From Gemmatimonadaceae bacterium (GTDB lineage Bacteria > Gemmatimonadota > Gemmatimonadetes > Gemmatimonadales > Gemmatimonadaceae): a DNA stretch of 64,000 nt. The translations under genes were made by a program, and so were the position numbers. The notes under the pieces are model-generated. The model was not told the origin of the DNA and searched no databases. It saw only the letters and a list, made by a program, of their open reading frames with translations. This document shows, in pieces, positions 36,877 through 39,445 of the stretch. Location: NCBI GenBank assembly GCA_035533015.1, contig DATLUQ010000011.1, forward strand, positions 62,001-126,000, read 5' to 3'. Positions within the stretch are counted from its first letter, which is position 1. The number at the start of each line of letters is the position of its first letter.

Positions 36877-37329
36877 ATGGACACCAAGCGTGCCGCCGCC
36901 GCGGGCCTCATCGCAACCGGTGCGATGACGGCTCTCCTGATGGTCGAACCCTCCATCGGGCTCCCGCAGATCGCGATGGGAGAGACGCTGAGCAGCACGA
37001 TGACCGCGATCTCCTCGCACACCGCGGTCGGTCCGGCCGGGGGATGGCTGGTGGACTTCGTGGTGGGCATCCTGTTCGCGATGTTCTACGCCGCCTATCT
37101 GGAACACCGGCTCCCAGGCACGCCGTTTCTGCGCGGGCTGCTCTTCGGGTGCGTCGTGTTCGTGCTGGCTCAACTGATATTCGCACCGCTCTCGGGGAAC
37201 GGCCTGTTCTCCCACGGCGACGTCGAAATGCTGGTGGGCGGACTGCTCGGACACCTCGTATACGGCGGCGTGGTCGGCTATGTCTACGGCGGTGCCGGGG
37301 CGCTCCCGGAGACCGCAAGCGGCCGATAA
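36877..37329 (+). CDS. Small polytopic membrane protein
   Basis: The protein has 150 residues and four hydrophobic segments: AAAAGLIATGAMTALLMV, GGWLVDFVVGILFAMFYAAYL, FLRGLLFGCVVFVLAQLIFAPL and LLGHLVYGGVVGYVYGG. Gly is frequent in the helices, as in small channel-like or assembly proteins. GAGGG lies seven bases before ATG 36877; the ATG at 36829 is less well placed. It lies between the beta-propeller gene and the cytochrome pair on the same strand, so a role at the same membrane is possible. I do not assign a function. Confidence 0.65.
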   Translation: MDTKRAAAAGLIATGAMTALLMVEPSIGLPQIAMGETLSSTMTAISSHTAVGPAGGWLVDFVVGILFAMFYAAYLEHRLPGTPFLRGLLFGCVVFVLAQLIFAPLSGNGLFSHGDVEMLVGGLLGHLVYGGVVGYVYGGAGALPETASGR

Positions 37330-37493: not shown

Positions 37494-37958
37494 ATGGGAC
37501 TGTTCACCGTGCTTCCCCGACTTGCGCTCGCCGCCGCCATGGCGGCCGGCGGTGGGAAGCACCCTGCGGCCGCGTTGCCGGGGCCGGCCGCCCTGCCTGA
37601 CACGGGAGCGATGGTTGCGCACCCCCTACCGGCGGCCACCGCACTGTCTGACCCTGACGACGCGAAAGTGACGGCGGCCATGGTGGATGCGGGACGTGGT
37701 ATCTTTCACGGACAGGGCGGCTGCTTCGCCTGCCACGGAGCAAGCCTCCAGGGATCGGCCGTTGCGCCGCCTCTCGACAAGCACGGCAAGCCCTGGCTTG
37801 CGGCCAAGGGAGGGAGCTTCGCCGCCATCCTGCAAGTCGTCACGCACGGTGTTCCGGGTACGATCATGGTCGCACACCCCAACGGCATCAGCGACGCCAT
37901 CGCCGCTGAGGTCGCTGCGTACGTGTGGGCCGTCAACCATAAAGGAGCCAAACCATGA
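37494..37958 (+). CDS. Monohaem c-type cytochrome, exported
   Basis: The protein has 154 residues. The N-terminus has a moderately hydrophobic signal-like stretch (VLPRLALAAAMAAG). The haem motif is CFACH (Cys77, Cys80, His81) with GRGIFHGQGGCFACHG as the usual class-I context. A candidate sixth ligand is Met125 in PGTIMVAHPNG, and the C-terminal helix IAAEVAAYVWAVN is as expected. It is probably a periplasmic electron carrier. GGAGG precedes the ATG. It overlaps the next gene by four bases (ATGA), and that gene encodes a cytochrome-porin fusion, so electron transfer between the two is the simplest model. Haem would come from the C5 route, to which hemL at 20402 belongs. Confidence 0.85.
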   Translation: MGLFTVLPRLALAAAMAAGGGKHPAAALPGPAALPDTGAMVAHPLPAATALSDPDDAKVTAAMVDAGRGIFHGQGGCFACHGASLQGSAVAPPLDKHGKPWLAAKGGSFAAILQVVTHGVPGTIMVAHPNGISDAIAAEVAAYVWAVNHKGAKP

Positions 37959-39445
37959 CCGCCGCATTCCAGAGTTCCAGTGTCCGGCTGCCGCGCCGCA
38001 TGACCGCCGGACCTTCGCGACTGATGCTGGCCCTGGCGATCCTCGCCTGGCCTGCCGCCGCCCGCGCGGACGGCTCGGCCCGTGACGCCGGCGCGCCGGC
38101 CGCCGCTGTGGGCGCGCGCGCCGACCGGGCGGTGCTCGGCAGCCGTTTGCTCTCGGCCCTCGCCAACGTGCACGCCAACATTCCGGCGTTCTCCCGGCAG
38201 ACCGGCCTGGCCTGCAGCGTGTGCCACTATCAGTTCCCGGCTCTCACACCGTTCGGCCGCATGTTCAAGCTCAACGGCTACACGATGACCGGATTGGCGA
38301 CGATCGTCGCCCAGAAGGACTCGACGAGTGAGCCCAGCCTCAAGCTGCTCACGGTTCCGCCTATGGCGGCGATGTTCGTGGGCTCGGTGAGCAATACCGC
38401 GAAGGCCGCGCCCGGTACGCAGAACGGCACGGTCCAGTTCCCCGACCAGGCGAGCCTGTTCATCGGCGGCGCGATCACGCCCACCGTCGGGATCTTCTCG
38501 CAGTTCACGTATGCGGCCGCCGACGGGACGTTCGGCGTGGACAACATCGACCTCCGCTACGCCGCTCACCACGACATCAGCGGACACGACCTGCTGTTCG
38601 GCCTGACGCTCAACAACAACCCGACGGTGCAGGACGTCTGGAATACCGTGCCCGCCTGGAGCGCGCCGTATATGAGTTCCGAAGTCGCACCCGGCGCCAT
38701 TGCCAGCACGGTCATCGATGGCACCCTGGGCCAGGCCGTGGTCGGGCTCGGCGCGTATTCGCTGCTGGACAACCACCTGTACACGGAGCTGACCCTGTAT
38801 CGTTCCGCGCCGCAGGGCGCCGCGCTGCCGCTCGACTCCTCGGCCGTGAACACCACGGACGGTGTCGCACCGTACTGGCGCATCGCCTGGCAGCAGCAGA
38901 TGAGCCAGGACTACCTGATGCTCGGCACGTTCGGCCTGCACACGCAGCTCTATCCGGCCGGCGTGAGCGGAGCCACCAATCAGTTCACCGATTATGGGTT
39001 CGACGCGCAATACGAACATCCCTCGGGGGACGGCGCAATCATCGGCCACGCGACGTACATCCATGAGACCCAGAATCGCGTTGCCGACGTGACCGCCAGC
39101 AGTCCCGCCGCCGAGTTCCAGAGCGGCAACCTCTCCACGTTCAAGGCGAACGTGGCGCTCGCCACGTCGCTCACGTACGGCGCATCGCTCGGATACTTCC
39201 AGACCACCGGCAGCAACGACGCGATTCTCTACCAGCCCGGCGCCGTGAGCGGCAGCGCTACCGGCAGCCCCAACACGCAGGGCATGGTCGGGGAACTGAG
39301 CTACAACGTCTGGCAGAACGTCCGCCTCGCCGTGCAGTACGTGGCGTACACGAAGTTCAACGGATCGAGCACCGGCTACGATGGATTCGGCCGCTCGGCC
39401 TCGGACAACAACACGCTGTACACGTACCTGTGGTTGGCGTTCTAG
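37955..39445 (+). CDS. Cyc2-like cytochrome-porin fusion, outer membrane
   Basis: The protein has 496 residues. After an N-terminal export signal (about 22-38) a short cytochrome domain reads IPAFSRQTGLACSVCHYQFPALTPFGRMFKLNGYTMTG; within it the single haem motif is CSVCH (87-91). The PAFxRQTG, FPxLxxFGRxFKLNGYT frame around it is that of the fused cytochrome-porins of the Cyc2 group. The remaining 380 residues are beta-strand-rich with alternating aromatic residues and short Asn/Gly/Asp turns (GLTLNNNPTV, HATYIHETQNRV, VQYVAYTKFNG) and end YLWLAF, a typical outer-membrane barrel end. Cyc2 proteins oxidise Fe(II) at the cell surface, but relatives occur in many bacteria not known to do so. 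It is coupled to the monohaem cytochrome gene by an ATGA overlap. Confidence 0.82.
   Translation: MTAAFQSSSVRLPRRMTAGPSRLMLALAILAWPAAARADGSARDAGAPAAAVGARADRAVLGSRLLSALANVHANIPAFSRQTGLACSVCHYQFPALTPFGRMFKLNGYTMTGLATIVAQKDSTSEPSLKLLTVPPMAAMFVGSVSNTAKAAPGTQNGTVQFPDQASLFIGGAITPTVGIFSQFTYAAADGTFGVDNIDLRYAAHHDISGHDLLFGLTLNNNPTVQDVWNTVPAWSAPYMSSEVAPGAIASTVIDGTLGQAVVGLGAYSLLDNHLYTELTLYRSAPQGAALPLDSSAVNTTDGVAPYWRIAWQQQMSQDYLMLGTFGLHTQLYPAGVSGATNQFTDYGFDAQYEHPSGDGAIIGHATYIHETQNRVADVTASSPAAEFQSGNLSTFKANVALATSLTYGASLGYFQTTGSNDAILYQPGAVSGSATGSPNTQGMVGELSYNVWQNVRLAVQYVAYTKFNGSSTGYDGFGRSASDNNTLYTYLWLAF

Follow-up and report, generated by a model that had tools for sequence, protein, structure and literature searches.

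The window analysed here, a 64,000-nt stretch of a Gemmatimonadaceae genome, contains overlapping genes for a monohaem c-type cytochrome (P0001) and a Cyc2-type cytochrome-porin fusion (P0002). We think it probable that this pair constitutes a surface electron-uptake unit of the Cluster-2 kind, as found in the rus operon of Acidithiobacillus, with dissolved Fe(II) as its most likely donor. The components of this reading that can be taken directly from the sequences are the fusion, the overlap, the predicted barrel, the homology to rus-operon Cyc2 and the linkage to carrier genes that have been exchanged among relatives.

The gene pair and its predicted haem-porin

Both ORFs reported in the initial annotation are present and share an ATGA overlap (Table 1). 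A Shine-Dalgarno-like AAAGGAG is positioned 7–8 nt ahead of the P0002 start, which together with the overlap makes translational coupling plausible. Within the window, the pair is preceded by a gene for a DUF6789 small membrane protein and a beta-propeller gene and followed by a convergent ComM-like gene. The host genome is a 3.03-Mb draft (95 % complete) and belongs to the Gemmatimonadota, as had been proposed from the letters of the window.

Table 1. Positions of the gene pair and associated features in the window
Feature	Position	Strand	Details or basis
DUF6789 small membrane protein gene, probable accessory of the pair	36877–37329	+	Pfam PF20587, 1.1e-11
Shine-Dalgarno-like GGGAGGA ahead of the P0001 gene	37479–37485	+	Sequence
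P0001, monohaem c-type cytochrome gene	37494–37958	+	154 aa, ATG start, haem motif CFACH at residues 77–81
Shine-Dalgarno-like AAAGGAG of the P0002 gene, inside the P0001 gene	37941–37947	+	Sequence
ATGA overlap of the P0001 and P0002 genes, 4 nt	37955–37958	+	Sequence
P0002, Cyc2-type (Cluster-2-like) cytochrome-porin gene	37955–39445	+	496 aa, ATG start
P0002 haem segment, residues 77–109, PAFSRQTGLACSVCHYQFPALTPFGRMFKLNGY	38183–38281	+	Sequence and family alignment A2
Predicted 16-strand outer-membrane barrel of P0002, residues 137–496, C-terminal Phe	38363–39442	+	AlphaFold, structure match

P0001 possesses exactly one CxxCH, at residue 77, and scores above the cut-offs for Pfam PF00034 (Cytochrom_C) and PF13442 (Cytochrome_CBB3); it is presumed to be a periplasmic electron carrier. 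A hit to the cytochrome 579 model (NF033864; 4e-5) reached 23 bits, below the cut-off of 280, and was rejected as a generic cytochrome match.

P0002 returned no sequence match in Pfam, NCBIfam or the PDB. By eye, its N-terminus has an Arg-rich start followed by LMLALAILAWPAAARA, which we read as a possible signal peptide. The haem segment (NIPAFSRQTGLACSVCHYQFPALTPFGRMFKLNGYT) includes a single CxxCH at residue 87, whose two cysteines are the only ones in the protein, and a PXL shortly after it, in the form CHYQFPAL. Eight residues of the segment are invariant in family alignment A2 (Q82, C90, H91, L97, G101, F104, K105 and Y109); Met140, beyond the segment, is almost invariant and is a candidate second haem ligand. 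The length of the protein lies above the minimum of 365 aa used for Cyc2. The AlphaFold model (75 aligned sequences; pLDDT 83.9, pTM 0.81) displays an N-terminal helical haem segment at about residues 78–106 and 16 strands, each of at least nine residues, between residues 137 and 495, with pLDDT mostly around 90 or above. The solved structure that best matched this model was OprP (2O4V; E value 1.9e-8, TM 0.45/0.53), followed by general porins and OprO, and OprP and OprO are the porins that Keffer et al. name as resembling the Cyc2 barrel (PMC8406198). The fusion of a single haem segment to a barrel, as first described from the ORF translations, is thus borne out by the one CxxCH and by a predicted barrel with the 16 strands that had been anticipated. 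The TM-scores are moderate and, in our weighing, count against the preferred reading. P0002 would be located in the outer membrane and would be occupied by haem.

A predicted 16-strand barrel fused to one haem distinguishes P0002 from the MtrAB, MtoAB and PioAB systems, in which electrons likewise pass across the outer membrane but by way of a 26-strand barrel and a decahaem protein (PMC8406198).

Placement among Cyc2 proteins

To place P0002 we used surrogate cluster HMMs built here, in place of the FeGenie models and the chromosomal Acidithiobacillus ferrooxidans Cyc2: a P0002-type model made from sequences of other phyla, without Gemmatimonadota; a Cluster-1-like model from a Burkholderiales set recognised by motif and order; and a model of a separate Gemmatimonadota group, ARKY, made from Gemmatimonadota sequences. 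A functionally anchored reference came from a rusticyanin search, which led to an operon in genome G627 that begins with a Cyc2-like gene and also encodes COX2, COX1, CtaA, CtaB and rusticyanin. This operon matches the one published as the rus operon (PMC10654088), and its first gene is called rus-operon Cyc2 here. It is the sole such reference gained, since a second genome (G572) returned a rusticyanin above the cut-off and no P0002-type match.

Against these surrogates, P0002 scored 508 bits (P0002-type), 82 bits (Cluster-1-like) and 61 bits (ARKY), and the rus-operon Cyc2 scored 403, 63 and 57 bits, respectively. The family profile A2 detects the rus-operon protein over its full length (E value 9.7e-125), and the tree joins it to the P0002 family (SH-aLRT 81) on a long branch. 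The support for this join is moderate, and we count it against the preferred reading. By full-length profile, P0002 groups with homologues from Acidiphilium and Burkholderiales as well as with rus-operon Cyc2. Taken together, the surrogate scores, the profile match and the tree make the assignment of P0002 as a Cluster-2-type Cyc2 well supported, and the Cyc2-type identity given in the initial annotation holds, as profile and tree put P0002 in a clade with an electron-transfer member.

The resemblance to the rus-operon protein extends to the haem segment, the barrel and an adjacent periplasmic cytochrome gene; in A. ferrooxidans, cyc1 encodes the periplasmic cytochrome and adjoins cyc2 (PMC10654088). 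However, the cytochrome of the rus operon is a diheme c4 encoded downstream, whereas P0001 is monohaem and encoded upstream, and the P0002 locus lacks adjacent rusticyanin or oxidase genes, has a DUF6789 gene and carries the haem motif FSRQT. Cluster 1 Cyc2 proteins (Gallionellaceae, Zetaproteobacteria and Chlorobium) share the plan of haem segment plus porin, but their similarity to P0002 is much weaker and is strongest in the haem segment, and the spacing between CxxCH and PxL is one residue longer in Cluster 1 (CHxQHFP against CHYQFP). Membership of P0002 in Cluster 1 was rejected on profile and tree. Cyt572/Cluster 3 Cyc2 of Gemmatimonadota (PMC9671151) is likewise a cytochrome-porin fusion from the same phylum; equating the ARKY group, from which P0002 is distinct, with Cluster 3 is a guess.

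Two other members of the host's family (G008, L048:6653-8002; G014, L047:6762-8156) encode a Cluster-1-like Cyc2, the form typical of neutrophilic iron oxidisers, scoring 402–422 bits with the Burkholderiales Cluster-1-like model. Their CHFQKYP proteins led us to the Cluster-1-like set itself, for which 300 genomes from the order that includes Nitrosospira multiformis yielded 15 carriers, mostly reading CHxQHFP. In G008, the gene adjoins an operon that encodes 16- and 18-haem cytochromes, a small cytochrome and a protein that may form a barrel.

P0002 departs from the published motif preceding the Cyc2 haem site, AXPXFAR[Q/K][T/Y] (PMC8406198). It reads NIPAFSRQT, agreeing at five of the seven fixed positions, a shortfall that weighs against the preferred reading; we consequently file it as a Cyc2 homologue by full-length profile and not by the motif definition. 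The shorter screen used for the published tree, PXFAR[Q/K][T/Y], is passed by eight of the 49 Gemmatimonadota relatives and failed by 41, with FSRQT present in 33. Rus-operon Cyc2 itself (AVPAFARQL) also fails this screen, and the published motif is therefore too narrow for the P0002 clade.

Cyc2 is already on record in the Gemmatimonadota (PMC9769843; PMC9671151, as Cluster 3; PMC10367259; PMC13055281), ruling out a description of P0002 as the first from this phylum. What appears to be new relative to these accounts is the Cluster-2-type lineage, the motif departure, the exchangeable carrier and the copy of the DUF6789 and cytochrome genes at an alternative complex III (ACIII) operon.

Distribution and linked carriers

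Full-length orthologues of P0002, sharing 45–72 % identity, are encoded by 16 of the 60 related genomes when the window's own is counted, and P0002-type genes are patchily distributed across the phylum (49/395 genomes, 28/138 genera), indicating that the ORF has not arisen by chance. The whole genome collection contains at least 596 relatives, with Paraburkholderia, Trinickia, Methylocapsa, Acidiphilium, Acidocella and Gemmatimonadota among the carriers. P0001 was detected in seven of the 60 related genomes, and each of these seven also encodes P0002 (p = 3e-5, without correction for kinship).

Linkage of the P0002-type porin to a putative periplasmic one-electron carrier is strong on the evidence of gene neighbourhoods. 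In Gemmatimonadota, the 106 kb of flank that extends 1.2 kb from P0002-type genes holds 25 P0001-type cytochromes and nine cupredoxins, whereas the 306 kb further out has none of the former and one of the latter; the sampled cupredoxins match PF00127. The carrier gene may precede or follow the porin gene, be divergent from it or stand between two porin genes in tandem, and this variation in order and strand indicates that the linkage has been rebuilt and not only inherited. On the tree, cytochrome and cupredoxin have replaced each other at least three times. Among 66 full-flank loci of other phyla, a c-type cytochrome, most often diheme c4-like or monohaem, is encoded on the same strand within 700 nt at 44, and four have a cupredoxin alone; the cytochromes there number 50 in the near flank on the same strand, none in the near flank on the opposite strand and 13 in 541 kb of distant flank. 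Weighing against the preferred reading are 13 of the 49 Gemmatimonadota copies, which have a readable flank and no carrier nearby that is recognised by the signature used, although one of them (L212) does have a cytochrome with a variant signature.

These data bear on whether P0002 transfers electrons at all. It could instead be a common solute porin whose haem segment is vestigial, as its porin fold, its single haem and a clade known only from sequence would allow. We regard this as very improbable given the high conservation of the haem segment, in which C90 and H91 are invariant, the co-occurrence of P0001 with P0002 and a linkage that is both strong and repeatedly rebuilt, with one-electron carriers of two unrelated folds.

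Two further neighbours had been suggested as possible members of the unit. The DUF6789 protein belongs to the set, being supported by its Pfam match and adjoining the cytochrome and Cyc2-like genes in L037, L212, L224 and L236. The beta-propeller gene is real, but the neighbourhoods of 18 relatives contain no homologue of it, and we place it outside the unit.

Several loci display other arrangements. At L034 and L035, a small membrane protein that is DoxX-like by sequence character lies between the porin and cytochrome genes, in the place of DUF6789. Genomes of genus g19 (L233, L234, L235, L237 and L231) have tandem P0002-type genes and, either between these or next to them, a P0001-type cytochrome; in the second porin copy the haem segment is shifted (for example, PTFARQTRLNCAVCHLGGFPQL). 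A plasmid of A. ferrooxidans YQ-N3 (L050, CP084173.1) has, beside a transposase, a P0002-type gene nearly identical to Acidiphilium plasmid and genome copies, which points to horizontal transfer between acidophiles. In genome G040, a P0002-type gene is closely followed, on the other strand, by a multihaem operon (L044:9804-16398) whose products have 16, 19 and 8 haems and include a possible barrel.

Proposed electron flow and respiratory link

The scheme we propose is drawn by analogy with A. ferrooxidans (PMC10654088, PMC8790237) and from the Fe(II) oxidation proven for the Cyc2 clusters, having been demonstrated for one member in each of three (PMC8406198). P0002 would be exported and fold as a 16-strand outer-membrane barrel whose N-terminal segment holds one haem c. 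A small soluble reductant outside the cell, most likely dissolved Fe(II), would donate one electron to this haem, which would pass it to the co-translated P0001 in the periplasm; relatives would use a diheme cytochrome or a cupredoxin in place of P0001. From P0001, the electron would enter the respiratory chain, made up of terminal haem-copper oxidases and an alternative complex III whose operon includes a P0001 paralogue. Without RuBisCO, electrons from iron would supplement the energy of a heterotroph. Fe(II) as donor, the inward direction of flow and the gain in energy are thus what this scheme would imply.

The respiratory step draws on a second DUF6789–P0001 pair in the host genome (contig C25, L243:10617-11578), located at the end of an ACIII-like operon that encodes a pentahaem cytochrome, a large subunit with molybdopterin-type and Fe-S domains, and a monohaem cytochrome. 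The two pairs are 72 % (DUF6789) and 58–61 % (cytochrome) identical, and the ACIII-linked copy was seen in the host species only. Contamination was considered for C25. In tetranucleotide composition, C25 lies at a distance of 0.158 from the window and a second host contig at 0.162, which gives no sign of foreign origin but is no proof. The simplest reading is that the P0001 carrier may also be a substrate of the complex III/oxidase chain, and the genome encodes two haem-copper oxidases.

The direction of flow might be reversed, with the carrier delivering respiratory electrons to the outer-membrane haem and the haem passing them to external Fe(III) or a different soluble oxidant. One haem can serve either direction, a ferric reductase role has been suggested for Cyc2 with rusticyanin in A. 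ferrooxidans, and the family has members in Acidocella and in Acidiphilium, species of which reduce Fe(III) (PMC8790237); the presence of relatives in a genus with iron reducers counts against the preferred reading. We nonetheless judge outward flow decidedly unlikely because the activity demonstrated for Cyc2, with one member in each of three clusters, is Fe(II) oxidation (PMC8406198), oxygen reductase genes accompany the rus-operon member and the host itself has haem-copper oxidases.

Uptake could also be real but draw mainly on a donor other than iron (Mn(II), Cu(I) and reduced organic matter are examples), or the role could be protective, for example Fe(II) removal at the surface with no energy gain. 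Most relatives of P0002 occur in heterotrophs without an established iron metabolism, which again counts against the preferred reading, and the soil heterotrophs among them (Paraburkholderia, Trinickia, Methylocapsa and Gemmatimonadota) have no known iron oxidation. RuBisCO was not detected in the 95 %-complete host draft, some neighbours in Polymorphobacter are stress or metal-transport genes, and a part in Mn(II) lithotrophy has been suggested for Cyc2 homologues (PMC9040806). On the other hand, the sole functionally anchored member of the P0002 profile is rus-operon Cyc2, and no conserved neighbour indicates another donor; we view such a role as a minor alternative, less improbable than outward flow.

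Returning to uptake of electrons from Fe(II), we offer tentatively, and with some doubt, a broader proposal: that Gemmatimonadota and many heterotrophs possess a modular Cluster-2-type haem-porin with a swappable cytochrome c or cupredoxin carrier, and that here the copy of the carrier and DUF6789 genes at the ACIII operon connects complex III with the oxidation of iron at the cell surface, in what would be a lithoheterotroph. Such a unit would be under-reported because FSRQT fails the published screen. If this is correct, Cyc2-type surface electron uptake would be a recurrent accessory of soil and sediment heterotrophs, extending beyond specialist iron oxidisers, and surveys that apply the published motif filter would miss most of it in Gemmatimonadota. 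The tightly linked, exchangeable carrier would provide a concrete candidate for the periplasmic partner, a gap in most Cyc2 pathways.

Finally, a single stretch of another host contig (C36, L242:1512-12439) encodes a [NiFe] hydrogenase large subunit, two 8-haem cytochromes and HypC, suggesting hydrogen use tied to multihaem cytochromes.
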